Positions 12,016-23,561 of a stretch of DNA of 64,000 nucleotides are shown here, one piece after another. A program made the translations under genes and the position numbers. Source of the DNA: Flavobacteriaceae bacterium. Lineage in GTDB: Bacteria; Bacteroidota; Bacteroidia; Flavobacteriales; Flavobacteriaceae. Position 1 is the stretch's first letter; each line of letters opens with the position of its first letter. The stretch spans positions 186,001 through 250,000 of the forward strand of contig JAGYJA010000007.1 of NCBI GenBank assembly GCA_018402385.1, read 5' to 3'. The notes beneath the pieces were generated by a model that saw nothing but the letters and a program-made list of their open reading frames with translations, was not told the origin of the DNA and ran no database searches.

Positions 12016-13266
12016 ATGAAACTATTTATATCTTTATTTTTCTTGTTGTTTACTTTTTTTTCTTTTGGTCAAGTTAAAGAGACTCCTTCTCCTTATCATA
12101 TAAAAACAATTGCTTTCAAAGGTAAAACTCCACAGGCCCAACTTCCCATTTTAAAGCTTGGAGAAGGTTTTGAGTTAAGTTTTGATGATATTATTGGTGA
12201 TGAACGTGATTATTACTACACCATTGATCATTATAATTTTGACTGGACACCTTCAAACCTTGCTAAGGGTGAATATCTCAATGGTTTTGATGATGTGCGC
12301 ATCGATTTTTATGAAAACTCTTTTAACACTTTGCAAATGTATTCTCATTATGTATTGAATATTCCAAACAGGGATACAAGAAGTATCACAAAAAGTGGAA
12401 ATTATCTCGTTAGTATTTTTGATGATCGTGGAAATCTACAATTTTCAAGAAAATTTATGGTCTATGAGGATGTTGCGAATGTGGGTGTAGAAATCAAACG
12501 AACAAGAAATCTCAATTTTATTAACACAAAACAAGTTGTTCATTTTACGATTAATTCTCAAAGCTCGCCATTAATTAATCCAAATCAAAATGTTAAAACC
12601 CTGTTACTTCAGAATAGTAGTTTAAATTTTGCTATTTCAGATTTAAAACCGCAATACACTCTAGGCAATGAGCTTGTTTATCGTTATGATTTGGAGGCCT
12701 CATTCTGGGGTGGTAATGAGTTTTTTAACTTTGACAATAGTGATGTGAGAGGAGCAACTGTAAACATAAGAAGGGTTGAAATGGAAGATACTTTTATCAA
12801 TTATTTATATACTAATATCTCCAGAAAAGATAGACCTTATACCTACAATCCAGACATCAATGGTAATTTTGTTGTTCGCAATATCAGAGGTCAGAAATCA
12901 AGTATTGATGCCGAGTATGTCTGGGTGCACTTTGCACTTCAGTATTATGAGGACCTCAATGATGGTGAAGAGATTCATATTTATGGAAACTTCAACAATT
13001 ACACTCTTGACGACTCTACCCGATTGACTTATGACTCTAATAATGATGTTTACAGACTTAAACATTTATTTAAGCAAGGTTTTTACAACTATAAATATGT
13101 TATTAAGGATAGAGATGGCAACATCAATCAAGGTGCAATAAGCGGCAACTTTGATGAAACTGAAAATGATTATACTGTTGTGGTTTATTACAGAGATTTG
13201 GGAGGCAGGTTTGACAGAATCATAGGTGTGGGTTCAAACAATTCTGAAAATATCACAAACCACTAA
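12016..13266 (+). CDS. Type IX secretion system plug protein (DUF5103)
   Basis: A 416-residue exported protein. I chose the ATG at 12016 because it gives a typical signal peptide, MKLFISLFFLLFTFFSFGQ, with an AGG just upstream; an in-frame ATG lies at 11989 but adds a charged leader. The rest matches the DUF5103 family (YYYTIDHYNFDWTPS, GEYLNGFDDVRI). The Flavobacterium johnsoniae member is the plug that closes the SprA translocon when no substrate is present. Its presence fits the several T9SS cargo proteins in this window. It is divergent from nqrA. Confidence 0.88.
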   Translation: MKLFISLFFLLFTFFSFGQVKETPSPYHIKTIAFKGKTPQAQLPILKLGEGFELSFDDIIGDERDYYYTIDHYNFDWTPSNLAKGEYLNGFDDVRIDFYENSFNTLQMYSHYVLNIPNRDTRSITKSGNYLVSIFDDRGNLQFSRKFMVYEDVANVGVEIKRTRNLNFINTKQVVHFTINSQSSPLINPNQNVKTLLLQNSSLNFAISDLKPQYTLGNELVYRYDLEASFWGGNEFFNFDNSDVRGATVNIRRVEMEDTFINYLYTNISRKDRPYTYNPDINGNFVVRNIRGQKSSIDAEYVWVHFALQYYEDLNDGEEIHIYGNFNNYTLDDSTRLTYDSNNDVYRLKHLFKQGFYNYKYVIKDRDGNINQGAISGNFDETENDYTVVVYYRDLGGRFDRIIGVGSNNSENITNH

Positions 13267-13310
13267 AATCCCTTGCTATTGATAAGTTAAAAATATAGTC
13301 ATAAAAAAAC

Positions 13311-14465
13311 ATGCCGGATAAATTTTCTGTTTTTTTAGCAACACTTCTTCCTTCAAAAGAAAAAAACCAAAATTCTCTTCAATTCAGAGGTGAAAAATGT
13401 CTCAATTGTGAGCACCCACTTGATAAGAGTGATCACTTTTGTCCTCAATGTTCCCAGCTCAATTCTACAAAAAAATTACATTTTAAAGAATTGATTAGTG
13501 AATTTTTTGGCAACATTTTTTCTTATGATAGCAGGCTCATGCTAACGATGAGAGTATTGTTATTTAGACCAGGAACGATTTCTAAAGATTACATAGCAGG
13601 CAAGAGGATGCGATATGCCAATCCGTTTCGGTTTTATTTGAGTGTAAGTATTGTGTTTTTTTTAATTAATGGTGCACTCAACAAGATAAATGAATACAGC
13701 AATAATTCTTTTGAAAAGTTTAATGAAAGTGAAAAACCTAAAAATATAAAAACATCAAATGACCCGGAAACGGCTAGTGTTCTTGATGAGGTCTTTAAAA
13801 CAAATTCCTTTTCTGTATCAGACAGTTTAAATACTAATTCCTCAACTCTAAATTATTACAATAAAGATACTGTTGTTTATTATTCTGAAGTTCAGTTAGA
13901 CACTATGTATCGGGGTCAAAGATTTTATCAAAAGGTTAGTATTTACAATGATTTTTATAAAAAGAATAAAGCGGTAAAACCACAACAAGCATTGGATGAA
14001 ATTGGTCATGAGAAATCAACTTTCAATTTATGGCTTTATAAAAAAGTAATTGATTTTGACTTTTTTATAACGAACCCCAACTTTGCTAATGATTTTTTTA
14101 TGTCGAGACTTCCCATAGTTATATTTCTCTTTTTACCCATTTTTGCACTTTTCATTAAGCTTTTGTACATAAGAAAAAACAGGTTTACCTATATGGAGCA
14201 TTTGATATTTACATTTCACGTGCAAAGTTTATTTTTTGTACTTTTCATTTTTTCTGTAGTTTTTGATTTTGTTTTTTCAACTGATTTGTTTTCAAACATT
14301 GCACTTTTATTATTTATTTTTTATTTATACAAGGCTATGAGACGCTTTTATGGACAGGGCAGGTTTAAAACATTCGTTAAATTTATGATTTTAAACACTT
14401 TATTTATTACCTTAGCTACCTTTGCCGGAGTGGGCTATGCGCTCATTTCATTTTCAGTTTATTAA
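13311..14465 (+). CDS. DUF3667 membrane protein with N-terminal zinc ribbon
   Basis: A 384-residue protein. The N-terminus carries a four-cysteine zinc ribbon (Cys 30, 33, 44, 47: CLNCEHPL and FCPQC), followed by the DUF3667 block (RPGTISKDYIAGKRMRYANP) and about five membrane helices, one near 105-120 and four in the last ~120 residues. The loop between them is polar and long. DUF3667 proteins are common in Bacteroidota; their function is unknown. It sits 44 bases after the plug gene and 3 bases ahead of apaG. Confidence 0.85.
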   Translation: MPDKFSVFLATLLPSKEKNQNSLQFRGEKCLNCEHPLDKSDHFCPQCSQLNSTKKLHFKELISEFFGNIFSYDSRLMLTMRVLLFRPGTISKDYIAGKRMRYANPFRFYLSVSIVFFLINGALNKINEYSNNSFEKFNESEKPKNIKTSNDPETASVLDEVFKTNSFSVSDSLNTNSSTLNYYNKDTVVYYSEVQLDTMYRGQRFYQKVSIYNDFYKKNKAVKPQQALDEIGHEKSTFNLWLYKKVIDFDFFITNPNFANDFFMSRLPIVIFLFLPIFALFIKLLYIRKNRFTYMEHLIFTFHVQSLFFVLFIFSVVFDFVFSTDLFSNIALLLFIFYLYKAMRRFYGQGRFKTFVKFMILNTLFITLATFAGVGYALISFSVY

Positions 14466-14468
14466 TTT

Positions 14469-14855
14469 ATGGTACAACAAGTTACAAAAGGAATAAAAAT
14501 TTCTGTGGAAACCCACTTTGAAGGTACATTTTATAAAAACCAAAAAATGTACTATGCCTTTAGATACCAAATAACCATTGAAAATCAAAGCAAAGATCTT
14601 GTCCAACTCACTTCAAGATATTGGAAAATAAAAGATTCATTAAACTCTAATGAAATAGTTACAGGTGAAGGTGTTGTTGGCAAAAAACCTGTCATTAAAC
14701 CCGGTGATTCTTATACATACAACTCTGGTTGTTTATTACTTTCTCCATTTGGTTCTATGAAAGGTTTTTACAATATGATAAATTTCACGTCCACTCGCAA
14801 GTTTAAGGTAAAAGTCCCCTCATTTAGATTGAGTGCTCTATTTGCAATGAATTAG
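14469..14855 (+). CDS. apaG: ApaG-family protein
   Basis: A 128-residue protein that is one FN3-like ApaG domain, with family landmarks AFRYQITIENQS, LTSRYWKI, VVGKKPVIKPGD and YTYNSGC. ApaG has been linked to Co2+/Mg2+ efflux phenotypes, but its biochemical role is not firmly set; similar domains occur in F-box proteins and polymerase partners. It starts three bases after the DUF3667 gene, suggesting one transcript, and is convergent with the next gene, whose end is one base away. Confidence 0.9.
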   Translation: MVQQVTKGIKISVETHFEGTFYKNQKMYYAFRYQITIENQSKDLVQLTSRYWKIKDSLNSNEIVTGEGVVGKKPVIKPGDSYTYNSGCLLLSPFGSMKGFYNMINFTSTRKFKVKVPSFRLSALFAMN

Positions 14856-14856
14856 T

Positions 14857-15558
14857 TTAACTAACGATTTTATTAATTGCTCCAGTCTTTAAATCTTTAT
14901 AAATCATCCTAACTTGTCCATTATTCTTTTCTATTTGAGAAATGCTAACGGTTTTAATAAAGCCTCTGTCCATTTGTAAATCTATTTCTCTATCTCCAAT
15001 ACCAGCTTTATGATGAAATTCCCATAAATTTTCAGCATCAGCAGGATTCTTTTTTAAAAAATTTTGAAGCCAATCTTTCCGAAGCACCTCCATCTCTTCT
15101 GAATATAAAGGCGATGAGCTCCAAATATGATTTGACAAACAAAGTTCCTGAAAGTGAATTTTAAGTTCATCCCATACCAATTGATACAATTTCAAACCAA
15201 AATGCCAATCCACTAAAATGATGGTAAAAGGTTCAATGCCCACAAAGTCAAAATCTTTAATTTCTTGAATAGCATCTTCTGCAACAAGCAGTTTTTTAAC
15301 CACAACTCCCCTGCTCATTTTGTAAATTGATTTTCTTTTGTGAGGCATAAATGCTCCGTTTAACAAATTTATGAGCCGGTTTTTTTCGCTTAAGCCAATC
15401 CAGGTTCCTCCTGCAACTTTGTCTTTAGGGTATATCAACTTTACATTATCCTCTGTATATTCTTGCGGACTTAAAGTACTCCTTTCAGGCAATTCATCTC
15501 TGTTTGAAGTGAGTATAAAATCATCTTTTCCTTTTGCAATAAATGTTACTGTACACAT
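14857..15558 (-). CDS. NRDE (TANGO2-like) family protein
   Basis: A 233-residue protein. The N-terminus MCTVTFIAKGKDDFILTSNRDE has the invariant Cys2 and the Asn-Arg-Asp-Glu motif that name the family, followed by GGTWIGLSEKNRLINLLNG. The fold is related to Ntn-hydrolases, so Cys2 may be catalytic once Met1 is removed, but the bacterial substrate is not known. It has no signal peptide. It lies alone on the minus strand between apaG and pruA. Confidence 0.85.
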   Translation of the reverse strand: MCTVTFIAKGKDDFILTSNRDELPERSTLSPQEYTEDNVKLIYPKDKVAGGTWIGLSEKNRLINLLNGAFMPHKRKSIYKMSRGVVVKKLLVAEDAIQEIKDFDFVGIEPFTIILVDWHFGLKLYQLVWDELKIHFQELCLSNHIWSSSPLYSEEMEVLRKDWLQNFLKKNPADAENLWEFHHKAGIGDREIDLQMDRGFIKTVSISQIEKNNGQVRMIYKDLKTGAINKIVS

Positions 15559-15688
15559 AGCTTTTAAGTCCTAAATTTGCGATACAACTTACAAAATTTC
15601 AGGAAAGAAGTAAAGCCAAATTTTAAAGAGACTCTTTAAAAATTTGTAACTTCGCAGTCAATTAAAATTTAAAGTAAAAACGAGAATT

Positions 15689-17317
15689 ATGGGAAAAGGA
15701 TTTTATAAAGTACCAATCGCTGTAAATGAGCCGGTAAAGAGCTATGCGCCGGGTTCCCCCGAAAGGGATGAGGTTTTAAGAACCTATAAATCAATGTACA
15801 ACAGTACTGTTGAAGTGCCTTTATATATCAATGGTAAGGAAATCCGCACGGGTAACACCGCCACAATGTCTCCTCCTCATGACCATAAGCATTCTTTAGG
15901 AACCTATCATAAAGCTGAAAAAAAGCACATTGAAGATGCCATTGCAACAGCTACTTGAAGCCAGAAAAAAATGGTCTAAAATGCCCTGGCAACAACGTGC
16001 AGGTATTTTCCTAAGAGCTGCAGAGTTAATTGCAGGTCCTTACCGGGCAAAAATTAATGCTGCAACAATGCTTGGACAATCCAAGAACATTTATCAAGCT
16101 GAAATTGATGCTGCTTGTGAACTGATAGACTTTTTGAGGTTCAACGTTCAGTATATGACTGAAATCTATGCAGAGCAGCCTGAGTCAACCTCAGGAGCCT
16201 GGAACCGCCTGGAATATCGTCCACTTGAAGGATTCATTTATGCTATTACACCATTCAATTTTACAGCAATTGCCGGTAATTTACCCGCAAGTGCAGCACT
16301 TATGGGGAATGTGGCTATATGGAAACCCAGTGATAGCCAAGTGTATTCTGCAAAAGTGATTATGGATATTTTTAAAGAAGCCGGCGTACCAGACGGAGTA
16401 ATTAATGTTGTAATGGGTGATCCTGTTATGATTACAGACACGATTTTAAACAGTCCTGATTTTTCAGGATTGCACTTTACCGGATCGACAGATGTATTTA
16501 AAATCCTTTGGAAACAAATAGGCAACAATATAAACAAATACAAAACCTATCCACGAATTGTGGGCGAAACAGGTGGTAAGGATTTTATTGTCGCTCACAA
16601 ATCTTCAGACCCCATTCAAATTGCAACTGCGATATCAAGAGGTGCTTTTGAATTTCAGGGGCAAAAATGTTCAGCGGCCTCCAGATGTTACATACCTAAG
16701 AATTTATGGCCTTCCGTAAAAGAACAGCTTGTAAAAGATGTAAAATCATTTAAAATGGGATCGCCTGAGGATATGGGTAATTTTATCACAGCAGTGATTC
16801 ACGAAGGTTCTTTTGACAAACTGGCGAGCTATATCGATCAGGCTAAAAAGATAGCAATGCAGAAATTGTTGTAGGTGGAAGTTATGATAAATCAATAGGG
16901 TATTTCATTGAACCTACTGTAATTTTAACTGAAGATCCAAAATACACAACAATGTGTACCGAGTTGTTTGGGCCTGTTGTAACTATCTATCTTTATGACG
17001 ATGACAAATGGGAAGAAACTCTTCACCTGGTTGATGGCACTTCTGAATATGCCCTTACAGGAGCTGTATTCAGTGAAGATCGATATGCGCTTGAAATTGC
17101 TGTTGACATCCTTGAAAACGCTGCCGGTAATTTCTATATCAATGACAAGCCCACAGGAGCGGTTGTGGGTCAGCAGCCATTTGGTGGTGCACGCGCTTCA
17201 GGAACAAATGACAAAGCAGGTTCTAAATTAAACTTGCTAAGATGGGTTTCCCCAAGAATGGTGAAAGAAACATTTGTAACACCGGTCGATTATCGTTACC
17301 CATTTTTGGGTGAGTAG
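15689..17317 (+). pseudogene. pruA: L-glutamate gamma-semialdehyde dehydrogenase, two frameshifts
   Basis: Three consecutive frames together encode a full 542-residue 1-pyrroline-5-carboxylate dehydrogenase, the second step of proline degradation to glutamate. The first break is one extra base near 15953 (IATA then LEARKKWSKM). The second is a lost A in the A5 run at 16845-16849 (YIDQAKK then DSNAEIVVGG). Catalytic parts are intact across the breaks: VGETGGKDF with the Glu, FQGQKCSAASR with the nucleophilic Cys, and QPFGGARASGTNDKAG. Apart from the two indels the frame is clean, so sequence error is more likely than decay. A TAAATTTG box lies upstream at 15572-15579. Confidence 0.9.
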
Positions 17318-17350
17318 TAGAAGTAGATATTAGACTTTAAAGATTAGATA

Positions 17351-17387
17351 AATAAAAAACGCCTTGTTTTACAAGGCGTTTTTTTAT
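17351..17387. terminator. Bidirectional intrinsic terminator
   Basis: The stem AACGCCTTG / CAAGGCGTT has a five-base loop (TTTTA), with A-rich sequence before and seven T after. It lies between convergent pruA and the Omp28-like lipoprotein gene and can serve both. Confidence 0.85.
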
Positions 17388-17404
17388 TATTTAAATTCTA
17401 AAAA

Positions 17405-18703
17405 CTATTCAAAATTTATACTTTGTCCGGCTCTCACGTGTTGGGCGTTTAAAGCGTTATTGTTTTCATCTACCACATAAACAGCAACACCAAAACGAGT
17501 GGGGTCATAGGTATTAGGTGATTCAGTTTCTGCAAATTCTGAAAGGTTTAAAGCTGTAAAGGTTCTGGAGTATGTTTCATAAGCAACTGTTGCAGGAATA
17601 GATTCTCCAAAAATGTTTGTTGTTAAAGATGCTTCTAAAACATCATCGTGTACAAAATCCGGAATTGGATTGCCCATTTGATAGTAAGGACTTCCCGGTG
17701 TATCTACATAATAATTAGTTTGCGGAAAAATCAAACCGTTCTGATAAACATAGGCAACCAACTTGTATGAAGATGGAATTGGGTTTTCAGATATTAATTT
17801 TACCTCCACATTAAGATTATCTCCATTCAAATTTGTGTTTATTGCAATGCTCAAATCAGTATCTTCACCGGCATGAGTCAGTGCTAAATCGATAGATTCT
17901 GTTCCATCTTCTGGAGTTGGAGCAGTGAGAGTTCTATTGATTTTAGCTGCGGGATAAGCACTAACATCAAAAGCATCTGCTAATTGACTTTCTCCTTCAA
18001 AAGCCATAATATCATTATTGTGTATGGCTACTATAACTACATCATCAGATTGTTCTTTAAGCAATCTTACTGCATTGGTAACTCTCACACACCAGCCACA
18101 CCAAGCCCCGGTATAGTCTTCATAGACTATCTTTCTTTTTGGAATGAACACCTCAAAAGTAGATTCTTCAGTTTGGCTCACACCATTATCATAAACAGCA
18201 TAAACTGAATATACTCCCGCCACATCAGTTATATAGGTAGCGCCTTCGATAAGATTGTTATCTACATAAAATTGAGCTTCTTCTGTGGCATCGGTTCCAT
18301 CAGGATTCAGAAGTTTGAATTCAACCGTTTGATTGCGTAAAGCTTTAGATTTGTTGATTACAAGAAATCGTTCAGTTACCACGTTAAATTCTAGTAAATT
18401 ACTACCATAGTCTTGATAAGTTGCTGAAAAAACATACTCCCCTCCTTCTGAAAATGAATAAGTACTACCCTCGATGGGTTCACCATTAACTGAAATGATG
18501 CTTTGAGAAGTATAATCCTCCCCATCGTCTCCTTCTACTGTAAACTCTAGAGTTTGATCAATCCCAATTGTTGATGTTTCAACATTAGCCTTGATGGTGA
18601 TTAAAGATAATGTATTTGCTCTGTTACCTAAGTAATCTGCACTACAGGCAATAATAAGTAATGAAAATAGTGCTAATAAAAATCCCTTAAATATAAATTT
18701 CAT
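17405..18703 (-). CDS. Omp28-related lipoprotein with thioredoxin-like domain
   Basis: A 432-residue lipoprotein with the acylated Cys at 20 (LLIIACSAD). Residues ~35-185 form two Ig-like beta segments. From about 190 a thioredoxin-like domain starts, with YTGAWCGWCVR giving a CxxC pair at Cys202 and Cys205, then an Omp28-type C-terminal beta region. Omp28 was named for a Porphyromonas gingivalis outer-membrane protein. The CxxC suggests redox activity or disulfide-based binding, which is inference. It is the last of three minus-strand genes and 17 bases behind the one before. A TlpA-like oxidoreductase is encoded divergently. Confidence 0.8.
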   Translation of the reverse strand: MKFIFKGFLLALFSLLIIACSADYLGNRANTLSLITIKANVETSTIGIDQTLEFTVEGDDGEDYTSQSIISVNGEPIEGSTYSFSEGGEYVFSATYQDYGSNLLEFNVVTERFLVINKSKALRNQTVEFKLLNPDGTDATEEAQFYVDNNLIEGATYITDVAGVYSVYAVYDNGVSQTEESTFEVFIPKRKIVYEDYTGAWCGWCVRVTNAVRLLKEQSDDVVIVAIHNNDIMAFEGESQLADAFDVSAYPAAKINRTLTAPTPEDGTESIDLALTHAGEDTDLSIAINTNLNGDNLNVEVKLISENPIPSSYKLVAYVYQNGLIFPQTNYYVDTPGSPYYQMGNPIPDFVHDDVLEASLTTNIFGESIPATVAYETYSRTFTALNLSEFAETESPNTYDPTRFGVAVYVVDENNNALNAQHVRAGQSINFE

Positions 18704-18720
18704 TTTTTTGAATTCTAAAT

Positions 18721-19452
18721 TTATTTAACAACAAATTTTAATGTTGAAGAATTGTTGCCGTCTGAAAATTTAATAAAATAAAGACCGCTATTTAAATTTG
18801 AGGTGTTAATTTTATTAAGCCCTGCTTCTATTTGTCCACTATTGATTAACTGACCGTTTAGAGATAGCATTTCAAAACTTAAATTGTTTAATGATTCAAT
18901 ATTGAGAAAATCTGATGAAATAGTATTTTGGAGTGTTATTCCTAGATTATTCTCATAATCAGTGATACTTAAATTTGGATCAAATCGGTATGTAAAGGAA
19001 ATGGACTCGCCTATTTCATTATCATCACCATCTACCTGGAAAAATTTCCAAACAAAATCCATTGGATAATTATTCCCATCACCATCATTTTCATTAAAAA
19101 ATTTATCAAATTGAGCATTTGTCCCACCTGCAGGAATGGTTACCGGCCCTCCGTTAACTGGATAAACCTGCCCCTCTGCTACATCAAAAATACAAAGTGT
19201 AGCAAAACAAAACTGGTAAGAACTTCCATCTCCATTTGTTATGGACTCTAATTGTATTCTAACAAATATATCATCTGTTTGTGATTCATTATTTATCCAG
19301 AAATATAAAGTTGCATCGGCTGCTGAAGTTGAATTAAATGCACGAATATCACCATCTAAAATTTGTACATCGTCATAATCTGTAACATTGAATTGAGCAT
19401 ATGTAAAGGTTGCTGATAATAAAAGTGCTAAAAGTAAGGATATCTTTTTCAT
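18721..19452 (-). CDS. T9SS cargo protein of unknown function
   Basis: A 243-residue secreted protein. A signal peptide spans residues 1-19 (MKKISLLLALLLSATFTYA). The middle ~140 residues form a beta-rich domain that I do not recognise, with the sequences YQFCFATLCIFDV and GGTNAQFDKFFNENDGDG. The last ~75 residues are a type A T9SS sorting domain ending STLKFVVK. It lies between the two Omp28-like genes, and a strong terminator separates it from the upstream gene, so it may have its own promoter. Confidence 0.75.
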   Translation of the reverse strand: MKKISLLLALLLSATFTYAQFNVTDYDDVQILDGDIRAFNSTSAADATLYFWINNESQTDDIFVRIQLESITNGDGSSYQFCFATLCIFDVAEGQVYPVNGGPVTIPAGGTNAQFDKFFNENDGDGNNYPMDFVWKFFQVDGDDNEIGESISFTYRFDPNLSITDYENNLGITLQNTISSDFLNIESLNNLSFEMLSLNGQLINSGQIEAGLNKINTSNLNSGLYFIKFSDGNNSSTLKFVVK

Positions 19453-19463
19453 AATATATGTTT

Positions 19464-19495
19464 TAAAAAAAAGGGAGGCCGGAAAAGGCCTCCCG
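19464..19495 (-). terminator. Strong intrinsic terminator
   Basis: GGGAGGCC (19473-19480) and GGCCTCCC (19487-19494) form a perfect eight-base-pair GC stem with a six-base loop. On the minus strand a run of eight T follows. It ends the transcript of the Omp28-like T9SS gene (19504-21207). Confidence 0.92.
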
Positions 19496-19503
19496 GGGAA
19501 AAT

Positions 19504-21207
19504 TTATTTAATAATTAATTTTTGGGTTGATTCATTATTACCATCATTCATTTTAACTAAGTATAATCCAGAATTGAGGGCACTTAAATCAATATGACCT
19601 CCGTTTGTTACATTTGAAGCATTGAAAATCAGCTTTCCTGTTATGTCAAAAATCGTTATATCCAGGTTACTTTCGGTTTGTATATTAAGTATTCCGGTTG
19701 TTGGGTTAGGGTAAATTAAAGCAACCAAAGTGTTGTTATCATTAACTCCAAGTGGATTTCCGGTAGTAGAGAAATTTTCAGACTCTCCTGAACCATAATT
19801 TCCATTTGTTGAAAAAATTACCAATCCGTTTGTATCTTGAAGTGTAACCGGACCGCCACCATCTCCAAAAGTATCTATAAGGTTGAATGTATAACAATCA
19901 TCGGTAAGTGTTATAGTTGGCACATTTATAGTTTGATTATTACCATAAGGACCGCCTTGGGTAATGGTTTGTCCTTCACCATTTTTTATATTCCATCTCA
20001 CTTCACTTCCCCAGTTGTCTGTTTGAATTGTTAAATCCAGTTCATAATGACTTTCGACTGCTTCATCAAATTCAAGTGTCATTTCATTATTTGAATTATC
20101 ATCATCATTTGGTAAAGTAACAACTAAAGTATTATTTGCTTGTAAATCAAATTCAATTTCAGGCAATTCAATAGTTTGAGAGGAAACTGAATTGAGCTGC
20201 CCTTCCCATTCATAAGTTTGAGCCGCTCCACCATTAACTGAATATTCAATTGTTAGAGCAGTTGTATTATTTGAACCTATGTTCTGTACTTTAATTGTTG
20301 GAGCTATAACATTATTACATTGATCCATTATTTCACTTATTTCATTGATTCTAATGTCATTAGCATTTGCTAATCCTGTATAAGTTGAAAAGACTCCGTT
20401 TCCACTAACAATATTTTGTTGAGTTTCTGTTATAAAAACAACTAGTTCTAATTCTGCTTCAAAAAAATCAACGGGAACTCCATTGTAATTAGCAGGAATA
20501 GTATAAGTAAAGGTTTCATCTACAAAACTACCAGAAGTTGTTGTATTGATATCAACCCCCCATTGTCCTGTTAATAAATGAACTAACCTGTGCATATGCA
20601 CATAATTATTTCCCATATTACCTCCAGATTGTGGGCCTAAAGTATTGTTTTGTAGTAATGCTACGTTAAGCTTATTAGTTGCCTGAGGACTATTACCAGT
20701 ATAGTAAGCCTCAACATGTACAGTTAATTCTCGGGTATTAATATCAATTTCAGCTTCAACACCCACGTTAACATAAGATGCTTGAGCAATTGTTTCATTT
20801 GAAGAGACGGTCCAAAAACTTCTACTCATTGCAGTGGTTCCTGGAGCTGTCATTTCTCTTCCAGGAAAATTTTGACGGTTTACCGTTCCTGAAGGATAAC
20901 CAAAACCTCCACCTGAATACGATTGATTTACGATGGCGTTGCCAAAAGGCGTTCTGAAATCAGGTTGACCTGCTCCAGGAGTTGAAAATCCACCTTGATG
21001 GATGTTGATAACAAAAAAATCATCAGGGTTATTATCTTTAATCGCATTTGCGATAGCGTGACCTTGAGGACAAAATTGACAGTTAATTCCTGTAAATTCT
21101 TCAAGAATTGCTTTTCTGTTTTCTGGATCTGTACTTACAATTGTTTGGCTAAAAACAGGATAGGCAAAAAAAAGTAATGCAGCTAGTAGTTGTAATTTTT
21201 TTAGCAT
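19504..21207 (-). CDS. Omp28-related thioredoxin-fold protein with T9SS sorting domain
   Basis: A 567-residue exported protein. The signal peptide spans 1-20 (LLFFAYPVFSQ). A thioredoxin-like domain opens immediately with EEFTGINCQFCPQGH, a CxxC pair at Cys43 and Cys46, followed by Omp28-type sequence (VINIHQGGFSTP, FGYPSGTVNR). A beta-rich middle region leads to a type A T9SS C-terminal domain (IYPNPTTGILNI to KLIIK). So this paralogue is a cargo exported to the surface, while the 17405-18703 protein is a lipoprotein. It is divergent from the TlpA-like gene across 189 bases that hold a TATATTTG box on this strand. Confidence 0.82.
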   Translation of the reverse strand: MLKKLQLLAALLFFAYPVFSQTIVSTDPENRKAILEEFTGINCQFCPQGHAIANAIKDNNPDDFFVINIHQGGFSTPGAGQPDFRTPFGNAIVNQSYSGGGFGYPSGTVNRQNFPGREMTAPGTTAMSRSFWTVSSNETIAQASYVNVGVEAEIDINTRELTVHVEAYYTGNSPQATNKLNVALLQNNTLGPQSGGNMGNNYVHMHRLVHLLTGQWGVDINTTTSGSFVDETFTYTIPANYNGVPVDFFEAELELVVFITETQQNIVSGNGVFSTYTGLANANDIRINEISEIMDQCNNVIAPTIKVQNIGSNNTTALTIEYSVNGGAAQTYEWEGQLNSVSSQTIELPEIEFDLQANNTLVVTLPNDDDNSNNEMTLEFDEAVESHYELDLTIQTDNWGSEVRWNIKNGEGQTITQGGPYGNNQTINVPTITLTDDCYTFNLIDTFGDGGGPVTLQDTNGLVIFSTNGNYGSGESENFSTTGNPLGVNDNNTLVALIYPNPTTGILNIQTESNLDITIFDITGKLIFNASNVTNGGHIDLSALNSGLYLVKMNDGNNESTQKLIIK

Positions 21208-21245
21208 GATATTTGTTTTGAGTTATAATAGTTGTTAATATTTTC

Positions 21246-21253
21246 CAAATATA
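21246..21253 (-). promoter_or_regulatory. -7 box for the Omp28-like T9SS gene
   Basis: On the minus strand this reads TATATTTG, a full match to the Bacteroidota -7 consensus TAnnTTTG, 39-46 bases upstream of the ATG at 21207. No clear -33 TTG lies at the right distance. Confidence 0.4.
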
Positions 21254-21396
21254 AATAATTATTGATAATTTAATGAATATTTAACACCATAGATTTGAGA
21301 AATACTGATTTACATTTAAAATAAATTTTGATTTTACTTAAATTTTAAATTTTATATTGTTAATATTGTCCTTCAATTTTAATACATTTTTGAATT

Positions 21397-21879
21397 ATGA
21401 AAGTTATTTTTTCACTTATTTCGTCATTGTTTTTTCTGATTACTTTTGCTCAAAGTGAGCTTCCTGATATGACCCTCAAAAGCCTTGATGGAACAGATGT
21501 AAACATTCAGGATATTTCTAAAAACGATCAAATTGTAATCGTTTCACTTTGGGCGACCTGGTGTGTCCCCTGTATTAATGAACTCGACGCTATTAGTGAA
21601 GTCTGGGAACAATGGAAAGATGAAACCAATGTAAAACTCTATGCAATTTCTGTTGATGATGCAAGAAGCGTTAGAAGAGTGAGACCAATGATTAATGGAA
21701 AGAGCTGGGATTATGAATTTTTACTTGACACAAATAATGATTTGAGGAGAATTCTTGGTGCAGCTACAGTCCCACTAACAATGGTTGTTAAAAACAACCA
21801 AATTATTTACAGACATTCAGGCTATACTCCCGGTGCTGAAGATGAATTGTATGAAAAAGTCGTTAATAATTCCAAATAA
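21397..21879 (+). CDS. TlpA-like periplasmic thiol-disulfide oxidoreductase
   Basis: A 160-residue exported thioredoxin-fold protein. The signal peptide spans residues 1-18 (MKVIFSLISSLFFLITFA). The active site is SLWATWCVPCINEL with Cys56 and Cys59, and the cis-proline region is AATVPLTMVV. It would act in the periplasm as a disulfide reductase or exchanger. It is followed after 29 bases by the DUF6029 gene and is divergent from two Omp28-like proteins that also carry CxxC motifs, which makes these its most obvious partners. Confidence 0.9.
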   Translation: MKVIFSLISSLFFLITFAQSELPDMTLKSLDGTDVNIQDISKNDQIVIVSLWATWCVPCINELDAISEVWEQWKDETNVKLYAISVDDARSVRRVRPMINGKSWDYEFLLDTNNDLRRILGAATVPLTMVVKNNQIIYRHSGYTPGAEDELYEKVVNNSK

Positions 21880-21908
21880 ACCCTCACAAACTAACTAAAA
21901 AACTTACT

Positions 21909-23561
21909 ATGAAAAACACACTGGTGGCAATTTTTTGCTTATGCTCCACTTGGTCTATAATTTCTCAAGATTCCGGAATTTTTTATGGCGGATTTGAATC
22001 AAACTCACAATGGCTTCAAGATGATGAAGGTATAAATATCCTTGCTCCCGAAGAACGTTTTCGTGCCAACAATTACTTAACTTTAAACTATAATTTAGGA
22101 AAATTTACTGCAGGTATTCAATATGAGTCCTATCTGCCTGTTCCTTTGTTAGGTTATGCACCAAATCTTGAAGGAAATGGAATAGGATCTTATTACCTAA
22201 ATTTCAAACATGAATCCCTCGATATCACAGCAGGGTATCTATATGAGCAATTTGGCAGTGGTTTGATATTAAGATTTTGGGAGGATAGACAACTGGGTTT
22301 AAACAATGCTCTTAAAGGTGTGAGAGTTAAATTTTCGCCCACAGATTATTTACACCTTACAGGGCTTTATGGTGAGCAACGCAATGGTTTTGAAACTTCT
22401 GCAGGAGTAACTCAGGGAGTTGATGCCATTTTAGACTTAGGTCAAGTCCTAGAGGTTGATGATTTATTTTTAGACTTAGGAGGGAGTTATGTAGCAAGAT
22501 ATCAAGATAATCTTGGAAGTTTTAACATACCTTCTGCTATTAATGCTTATTCTGGAAGGTTTGATTTGTTATATAAAAGTTTTACAGCTGGTTTTGAAGC
22601 CATTCACAAAGAACCAGACGTATTAGTGAATGAAGGCCTGATTACAAACAATGAAGAATTATATAAAGGGTCAGCTGTTTTATTAAATCTTGGCTATTCC
22701 CAAAGAGGTCTTGGAATTAATGCTGCTCTGAGACGTTTAGAAAACTTCAGTTTTTATGCTGACCGTTTTGCTGAAGGCAATGAGTTCAATCAAGAATTAA
22801 TTAATTACGTTCCCGGACTCACAAAGCAACATGACTATCAACTAACAAATATTTATGTTTACAACCCACAGGCTCGTTTGCTAATTTCAGACACACAAGT
22901 GCAAGCCGGTGAAATGGGAGCTCAAATTGACGGGTTTTATACCTTTGATAAAGACACACCTCTTGGCGGAAAATATGGAACAAAGCTAAGTATGAATTTT
23001 GCCTATTGGGCAGGACTTGATGCTGTTTATGATGTGGAAAACAATGGATATAAATCAGAGTTTATCGGGATGGATGGTGATCGATACTTTAGAGAATTTT
23101 CTACTGAAATCAGAAAAAGATGGACAGAAAATTTAAGTGGTATTTACACTTACACAAACGTCATTATTGACAAAGGAATTACAGATGGCAGCCCGCTGGC
23201 CATTGATGATATACTCGCAAATATTGCGGTTCTTGAACACACATACCGCCTTGGTGGAGGAAAAGCATTGCGCTTTGAATTACAACACTTATGGTCAGAT
23301 GATGACCGAAAAAATTGGGCTGCAACATTACTTGAATACAACTTCTCTCCGCGTCTGGGAGTCTATGTAACTGATTCATGGAATTATGGTGGTGAGGATG
23401 AAATTCACTATTACAATGTGGGTGGAAGCTACACAAAAGGCAGAACCAGACTCGCTTTGAATTATGGGCGTCAACGCGGTGGATTAATATGTGTGGGAGG
23501 TGTTTGTAGACTTGTTCCCGAAAATACAGGATTCTCAATGAATATAGCTGTATCCTTTTAA
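21909..23561 (+). CDS. DUF6029 family outer-membrane beta-barrel protein
   Basis: A 550-residue protein with a signal peptide (residues 1-19, ending IISQ) and alternating aromatic/polar strands through its length (LNYNLGKFTAGIQYESYL, YLNFKHESLDITAGYLYEQF) that end in a final Phe, typical of outer-membrane barrels. It matches the DUF6029 family. A CVGGVCRLV segment close to the C-terminus gives one CxxxxC pair, notable beside a thiol-disulfide oxidoreductase. The function is unknown. It is probably co-transcribed with the TlpA-like gene. Confidence 0.8.
   Translation: MKNTLVAIFCLCSTWSIISQDSGIFYGGFESNSQWLQDDEGINILAPEERFRANNYLTLNYNLGKFTAGIQYESYLPVPLLGYAPNLEGNGIGSYYLNFKHESLDITAGYLYEQFGSGLILRFWEDRQLGLNNALKGVRVKFSPTDYLHLTGLYGEQRNGFETSAGVTQGVDAILDLGQVLEVDDLFLDLGGSYVARYQDNLGSFNIPSAINAYSGRFDLLYKSFTAGFEAIHKEPDVLVNEGLITNNEELYKGSAVLLNLGYSQRGLGINAALRRLENFSFYADRFAEGNEFNQELINYVPGLTKQHDYQLTNIYVYNPQARLLISDTQVQAGEMGAQIDGFYTFDKDTPLGGKYGTKLSMNFAYWAGLDAVYDVENNGYKSEFIGMDGDRYFREFSTEIRKRWTENLSGIYTYTNVIIDKGITDGSPLAIDDILANIAVLEHTYRLGGGKALRFELQHLWSDDDRKNWAATLLEYNFSPRLGVYVTDSWNYGGEDEIHYYNVGGSYTKGRTRLALNYGRQRGGLICVGGVCRLVPENTGFSMNIAVSF

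Follow-up and report, generated by a model that had tools for sequence, protein, structure and literature searches.

A TlpA-like oxidoreductase, a DUF6029 barrel and an Omp28 lipoprotein encoded together across Bacteroidota, with a candidate role in thiol-disulfide exchange at the cell surface

The window analyzed here is a stretch of 64,000 bp (contig JAGYJA010000007.1, positions 186,001 to 250,000, forward strand) from the genome of a Flavobacteriaceae bacterium (GCA_018402385.1; 2.77 Mb in 11 contigs, completeness estimated at 92.5%). Two divergent gene groups of the window encode five exported proteins: an Omp28-like lipoprotein, an Omp28-like protein and a small protein that are both exported through the type IX secretion system (T9SS), a TlpA-like oxidoreductase, and an outer-membrane barrel of the family DUF6029. 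A preliminary description had taken all five together as a thiol-disulfide module of the cell surface. The question raised by the locus is whether such a module exists in other genomes, which genes belong to it, and on which side of the outer membrane it would act. All five proteins were recovered by open reading frame (ORF) and Pfam analysis, and the cysteine motifs CGWC, CQFC, CVPC and CVGGVC translate where they had been placed. A conserved thiol-redox module of TlpA, barrel and a surface thioredoxin is well supported; its general core consists of three genes, i.e. those for a periplasm-type TlpA, the DUF6029 barrel and the Omp28 lipoprotein.

Conservation of the gene neighborhood

Loci were collected with a profile built from an alignment of 17 barrels, which gave at least 586 confirmed relatives in the genome collection; the best 80 of these were taken, a choice biased towards close relatives of the window. 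Supplemented by 30 loci from a sample of the order (118 genomes), they make up a set of 110 loci, which includes the window itself. A draw of 198 genomes from the phylum, sharing some genomes with the order draw, is a fairer test than the 110-locus set. Barrels in the phylum draw (E ≤0.001; 56 genomes) were classed as strong (≥60 bits; 39 genomes) or weak (<50 bits; 17 genomes), and the surroundings were examined at every strong place other than that of the window (39) and at 17 weak ones. ORFs were naive calls; the positions of TlpA and Omp28 at the 110 loci were assigned by profiles on six-frame translations.

In 105 of the 107 loci with sufficient upstream sequence, the gene immediately before the barrel, in the same orientation, encodes TlpA; an Omp28 gene is present no further than 5 kb from the barrel in 102 of the 110 loci. 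In the remaining eight, less than 3 kb is available on one side or both, and at two of these eight (L023 and L026) TlpA is not next to the barrel either. The nearest Omp28 gene is divergent and upstream in 67 loci, co-directional and downstream in 33, and otherwise placed in two. Besides the barrel, the most frequent ORF clusters are those of TlpA (103 loci) and Omp28 (96 loci), and the layout occurs in records of Flavobacteriaceae, Chryseobacterium, Bacteroidales, Chitinophagales and Cyclobacteriaceae. In the phylum draw, 35 of 40 strong barrel places have Omp28 within 5 kb (exceptions: genomes G156, G138, G133, G126 and G227). TlpA, in one orientation or the other, was found no more than 1.5 kb upstream at 34 of the 39 strong places examined and at all 17 weak ones. 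The genes are thus neighbors in other genomes too. Two of the exceptions are particular cases: Omp28 adjoins the frame-broken barrel of G138, and in G227 a T9SS-exported Omp28 protein that the genome search had missed follows the barrel. The frame break in G138 (contig C49, locus L115) is near the 3' end of the barrel gene, with CVGGVC in the next short ORF.

The five-protein composition of the preliminary description holds for the window and is particular to some lineages, in which the three-gene core is supplemented by the T9SS-exported Omp28 protein and the small T9SS protein, neither of them obligatory. A T9SS-exported thioredoxin-like protein was recognized in at least 24 of the 80 named loci, and 25 of the 110 loci have a relative of the small T9SS protein; a T9SS hydrolase-like protein (cluster 19), also encoded in the window, lies near the module in 12 of the 110.

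Barrel and Omp28 also occur together at the level of whole genomes. In the phylum draw, Omp28 was found in 38 of the 39 strong-barrel genomes (the miss is G227) versus three of the 159 others, two of these three matches being below the Pfam cut-off; a Fisher's p for this association takes no account of shared ancestry. Of the 118 genomes of the order draw, 50 encode DUF6029; Omp28 is present in 50/50 of these and in 4/68 of the genomes without DUF6029, with two of the four matches again under the cut-off. The T9SS component SprA is encoded in all 39 strong-barrel genomes and in 154 of the 198 genomes overall, a comparison that is weakly informative since 19 of the 20 SprA-less genomes listed belong to one family.

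Protein distances were compared for the 22 loci that contain all seven genes, i.e. the three core genes and four flanking genes. The correlation is r 0.93 for barrel and Omp28, 0.83 for barrel and TlpA, and 0.74 for TlpA and Omp28, compared with 0.38 to 0.54 for the barrel and the four flanking genes. Corrected for the flanking genes, the respective values are 0.91, 0.75 and 0.65; a run with 94 loci (pruA in 32 of them) gave raw values of 0.83, 0.81 and 0.71. The distances hence correlate beyond those of the flanking genes; the three genes share a history apart from that of their surroundings, with barrel and Omp28 as the tightest pair. One might object that these exported proteins merely stand together in an inherited gene order, for many Flavobacteriaceae loci do hold the set between the same flanking genes, as vertical inheritance predicts. 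Adjacency and co-occurrence, however, persist in lineages where other genes flank the set, and the distances of the three genes agree more closely among themselves than with those of the flanks, which makes such a coincidence most improbable; on adjacency, co-occurrence across the phylum and correlated distances, a chance neighborhood was rejected.

Cysteine pairs and their predicted placement

The barrel of the window matches DUF6029 over residues 1-550, and DUF6029 is the sole Pfam family in 86/86 aligned barrels. These 86 rows were chosen from 109 full-length barrels besides that of the window, as were 59 Omp28 rows from 111 ORFs of the Omp28 cluster, leaving out second copies, T9SS-type proteins and some near-duplicate or truncated ORFs. 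Both cysteines of a terminal C-x4-C are present in every aligned barrel, with Cys528, Gly530, Gly531 and Cys533 invariant, and 68 of the 86 mature barrels have exactly two cysteines. Of the 39 strong places, 38 have the terminal pair, and in the last one it lies in a fragment past a frame break. Similarly, the CxxC and the cis-proline (Pro126) of TlpA are conserved in 105/105 sequences, 104 of which have no lipobox-like motif, and CxxC is present in 110 of the 111 Omp28 ORFs from the 110 loci; the cysteine pairs of each core family are hence kept. Of the two outcomes that the preliminary description named as refuting the module, scattered genes and variable cysteine pairs, neither was observed. 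In the window, TlpA (Cys56, Cys59) and barrel (Cys528, Cys533) contain no further cysteines outside their signal peptides, and the Omp28 lipoprotein contains only Cys20, Cys202 and Cys205, of which Cys20 is the lipid-attachment residue.

In the barrel model (mean pLDDT 93.5), about 24 main strands were counted from the predicted strands; the turns at one side of the barrel are short, the loops at the other long. Cys528 and Cys533 stand opposite each other in a hairpin (strands 525-529 and 532-536) that immediately precedes the final strand. As a rule, barrels of this type have the end of their final strand in the periplasm, and the hairpin is therefore predicted to be on the outer side of the outer membrane, a placement derived from predicted strands and the general barrel rule, not from atomic coordinates. 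An outer pair could meet Omp28 and could not meet a periplasmic TlpA.

The Omp28 lipoprotein has a lipobox (LIIAC), and Cys20, Cys202, Cys205 and a cis-proline (Pro251) are invariant in all 59 rows. Its model (pLDDT 93.3) has the surface thioredoxin HBP35 of Porphyromonas gingivalis as best Foldseek match (5y1a, E 1.1e-10), and the profile of its alignment finds Omp28 (2r2c, E 1.5e-19) and HBP35 (E 2.8e-13). These matches support a thioredoxin fold despite a PF00085 Thioredoxin score of 22.4 bits, just under the cut-off of 23.5. The two Omp28 proteins of the window score 32.8 and 83.2 bits with NF033782 lipoprot_Omp28 (cut-off 150), and the T9SS-exported one 28.5 bits with the Omp28-related selenoprotein model NF045500 (cut-off 200), i.e. 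below both thresholds; a T9SS domain (PF18962) was not found in the core lipoprotein by Pfam.

Acidic residues after the lipidated cysteine are described as a mark of surface lipoproteins of this phylum (PMC5080379, in the parts available). At least two acidic residues at positions +2 to +6 are found in 44 of the 59 Omp28 rows versus 11 of 31 other lipobox-like clusters, a background that is a motif count and surely includes some surface lipoproteins. The Omp28 lipoprotein family is hence likely surface-exposed rather than periplasmic. Relative to the preliminary description, the lipoprotein family is thereby shifted to a probable surface location.

The remote relatives of the barrel lack this lipoprotein: genome searches found Omp28 in none of the 17 weak-barrel genomes. 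The C-x4-C is present in all 17 weak barrels, and the variants across strong and weak places include CVGGVC, CTGGVC, CSGGIC, CTNGVC, CANGVC and CTSGIC. At 16 of the 17 weak places an extra redoxin-like CxxC protein follows the barrel (profile search), and at loci L119, L120 and L124 (the 17th weak place) Pfam predicts a protein that joins an AhpC-TSA/Redoxin domain with a T9SS sorting domain; at L119 and L120 a second redoxin without T9SS domain lies between the barrel and the T9SS redoxin. These loci are a sister form of the module. Omp28 is missing and yet another surface-bound thioredoxin-fold protein is present, so that the barrel appears to belong with a surface thioredoxin, and we regard this replacement by a T9SS redoxin, which was checked at three places, as the strongest argument for the tie. 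At the remote loci (L119, L120, L124 and L126-L139), the DUF6029 relative carries CTSGIC and is followed by one or two redoxins.

The small T9SS protein of the window contributes a cysteine pair that the preliminary description did not list (CFATLC, C-x4-C). Both cysteines are kept in 25/25 relatives, with the same spacing as in the barrel, and this protein is a possible substrate of the module.

Possible function and alternative explanations

No module of this composition, of which the preliminary description also knew none, was found in the open-licence literature searched; other journals may differ. The nearest characterized relative is HBP35, which combines a thioredoxin-type CxxC domain with an Ig-like domain, as does the core Omp28 lipoprotein. 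According to the accessible text on HBP35, it is a surface protein whose thioredoxin activity requires both cysteines; it reduces insulin with DTT and complements a dsbA mutant of E. coli. HBP35 also binds hemin, and its own mutant grows poorly without hemin (PMC2907840); that text mentions no barrel or TlpA partner. HBP35 is secreted by the Por system (PMC3120885, available portion), i.e. it is T9SS cargo, whereas the core Omp28 is a lipoprotein; the accessory protein at 19504-21207 does carry a T9SS domain. A 2026 preprint, in its available part, proposes a role in oxidative stress and iron for HBP35-like surface thioredoxins of Muribaculaceae and does not mention a DUF6029-type barrel with them (PMC13404670).

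The neighborhood and the conserved cysteines, which uphold this part of the preliminary description, lead us to lean, with caution, towards a joint thiol-disulfide function that has its active end at the surface. TlpA, the barrel and the surface-anchored thioredoxin-fold protein would act as one unit, in which the surface thioredoxin (Omp28 or T9SS redoxin) docks on the barrel and swaps thiols with the C-x4-C loop. The redox state of the surface thioredoxin would thereby be tied to the cell, and it might reduce or reshuffle disulfides of surface and T9SS-exported proteins; in some lineages, the T9SS-exported Omp28 protein could serve as an extra enzyme and the small C-x4-C protein as a substrate. 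The compartments, the docking, the direction of the electrons and the crossing of the membrane are the parts of this reading that we infer.

The passage of electrons or disulfides across the outer membrane, which had also been suggested, fits the anatomy of the module. TlpA would feed electrons from the inner side, and the route through the barrel might be a loop that reaches into the lumen or a small thiol that passes through. Such a relay from TlpA via the C-x4-C loop to the surface thioredoxin is a tentative proposal, which we consider doubtful at present. DsbD transfers electrons across the inner membrane, and the relay would resemble it in connecting two compartments by thiol exchange; the membrane is a different one, the crossing is here only proposed, and we know of no outer-membrane counterpart of this kind. 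If the relay is real, the cell sustains reducing power by enzymes beyond its outer membrane, to act on surface and secreted proteins.

Several observations weigh against a single surface-acting unit. TlpA is predicted on the opposite side of the membrane from the cysteine pair of the barrel, and the five of 39 strong places that have no adjacent TlpA still carry the C-x4-C. In G133, G126 and G156, no Omp28 was found beside the barrel in the surroundings examined; it is encoded on another contig, 14.6 kb off or 140 kb off. At L023 and L026 (genomes G043 and G019), barrel and Omp28 are apart in the genome and TlpA does not adjoin the barrel. Many T9SS genomes do not have the set, among them 20 other genomes of the same family listed in the order draw. 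In the lipoprotein of the window (SADYL after the lipidated cysteine), only one of the positions +2 to +6 is acidic, which makes its own surface exposure uncertain, and HBP35 both reduces insulin and complements dsbA, so that thiol exchange might run in either direction. Separately, a barrel neighbor at L023/L026 considered as an Omp28 without CxxC was rejected, its sequence being unrelated, and the idea of a coupled loss was dropped.

Since the loop appears to face away from TlpA and survives without an adjacent TlpA, two other roles for the barrel have to be considered, and comparisons of its fold bear on both. The top matches with VIA-align were FimD (3ohn; Z 18.2, 381 residues, rmsd 4.4) and PapC (2vqi; Z 17.3, 373 residues, rmsd 4.8), with the porin OccK3 (3szv; Z 17.6) tied; AlgE was also among the matches (Z about 15). 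These matches indicate a large barrel and no function. A separate list of fold matches includes 8bmx, a complex of a barrel with a surface lipoprotein. The likeness to the fimbrial ushers FimD and PapC concerns only the barrel domain, at about 10-12% identity, and no usher family was detected by Pfam in the barrel of the window (E ≤0.1) or in the 86 members (0.001). Matches of the barrel profile to RecA in the PDB covered 34 profile positions in fused RecA constructs, and RecA was set aside as spurious.

One of the two alternatives is dedicated maturation, in which the barrel transports or exports something else, e.g. polysaccharide, and TlpA and/or Omp28 form or proofread its single C-x4-C disulfide, much as general disulfide enzymes form and proofread the disulfides of LptD. 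The usual single cysteine pair of the mature barrel, with the two cysteines facing each other in the hairpin, and the match to AlgE would suit it. So would the DUF6029 literature, which in the library searched consists of one paper: in its available portion, plug-less Wzi homologues are similar to DUF6029 in HHpred, and a possible role in polysaccharide secretion is suggested (PMC9603273). Wzi itself is not among the fold-search matches listed, which bears little on this point. The conserved neighbors are here redox proteins, not polysaccharide genes; none of the latter recurs among the clustered ORFs of the 110 loci. As the pair is kept at the places without adjacent TlpA, and as an enzyme targeted to the surface would come too late to aid barrel folding, we find maturation unlikely.

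The barrel might alternatively be an uptake channel for a thiol, haem or metal compound that Omp28 captures or reduces outside and TlpA handles inside. Pairing of a barrel with a surface lipoprotein is a common uptake design in Bacteroidota, and the match to 8bmx and the hemin binding of HBP35, with the poor growth of its mutant, agree with it. A TonB-dependent receptor domain, however, was predicted by Pfam in none of the 86 barrels, and we judge uptake to be rather improbable.

Under the joint surface function that we favor, DUF6029 would for the first time be placed in a functional context, and surface thioredoxins of the HBP35 type might have found a partner. The proteins inherited with the barrel are of the thioredoxin fold and predicted to flank the membrane on either side, and the predicted outer cysteine pair of the barrel is kept across the phylum. 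To our knowledge, it is an open question how disulfides are controlled in proteins that are already outside the Gram-negative outer membrane, and the module makes such extracellular control experimentally approachable.

The locus in the window and further observations

The features of the locus are summarized in Table 1. On the minus strand, the genes for the T9SS-exported Omp28 protein, the small T9SS protein and the Omp28 lipoprotein follow each other in this order, 51 and 17 bp apart; on the plus strand, TlpA is followed after 29 bp by the barrel and after a further 117 bp by the T9SS hydrolase-like protein. The starts of the two groups are 189 bp apart. The curated Pfam cut-offs are 34.9 bits for PF11551, 27 for PF18962, 26 for the AhpC-TSA/TlpA type and 27 for DUF6029.

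Table 1. Genes, cysteine motifs and intergenic space of the module locus (positions in the window)
Feature	Position	Strand	Evidence
Omp28 lipoprotein, 432 aa; lipobox, Ig-like domains, thioredoxin-like domain, Omp28 domain; core	17405..18703	-	PF11551 69.8 bits
CGWC active-site motif, Omp28 lipoprotein residues 202-205	18089..18100	-	translation
Small T9SS-exported protein, 243 aa; accessory, possible substrate	18721..19452	-	PF18962 39.8 bits
CFATLC, the sole two cysteines of the small T9SS protein	19192..19209	-	translation
T9SS-exported Omp28 protein, 567 aa; accessory	19504..21207	-	PF11551 55.7 bits, PF18962 66.8 bits
CQFC motif, T9SS-exported Omp28 protein residues 43-46	21070..21081	-	translation
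Intergenic space (189 bp) between the divergent groups; putative promoters	21208..21396	.	coordinates
TlpA-like periplasmic oxidoreductase, 160 aa; core	21397..21879	+	PF00578 63.3 bits
CVPC active-site motif, TlpA residues 56-59	21562..21573	+	translation
DUF6029 outer-membrane barrel, 550 aa; core	21909..23561	+	PF19494 677.1 bits; model pLDDT 93.5
CVGGVC hairpin, barrel residues 528-533, before the last strand; predicted outer side	23490..23507	+	translation, model strands
T9SS-exported alpha/beta-hydrolase-like protein, 759 aa	23679..25958	+	PF18962 28.1 bits, PF05057 26.5 bits

Locus L031, a Flavobacteriaceae contig from a metagenome-assembled genome, has a barrel 94% identical to that of the window and is nearly the same sequence, in agreement with the placement of the window in this family. 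At L038, four large Omp28 paralogues (632, 638, 634 and 532 aa) are encoded in a row downstream of the barrel (12954-21645), each with CGWC or CGYC, the 532-aa one being cut by the end of the locus. At L073 and L082, T9SS-type AhpC-like proteins (478 and 487 aa, CGPC) adjoin TlpA and the barrel and cluster with the large Omp28 proteins, i.e. another exported oxidoreductase stands there beside the module.

The Paraprevotella protein PROKKA_00502 is described, in the accessible part of the report, as a T9SS-dependent 'Omp28-related' surface protein, with WD40 and Ig-like domains in its AlphaFold model and no mention of thioredoxin or disulfides (PMC9477747); this trypsin-recruiting system was rejected as a parallel.

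Names for neighboring gene clusters (pruA, rsmG, TANGO2) are in part provisional. The gene at 15689-17317 (+), which we take to be that for L-glutamate gamma-semialdehyde dehydrogenase (pruA), is split into three ORFs of 89, 314 and 121 aa; pruA-related single ORFs in 34 loci have a median length of 542 aa, so that the copy in the window is frame-broken, perhaps by sequencing errors.

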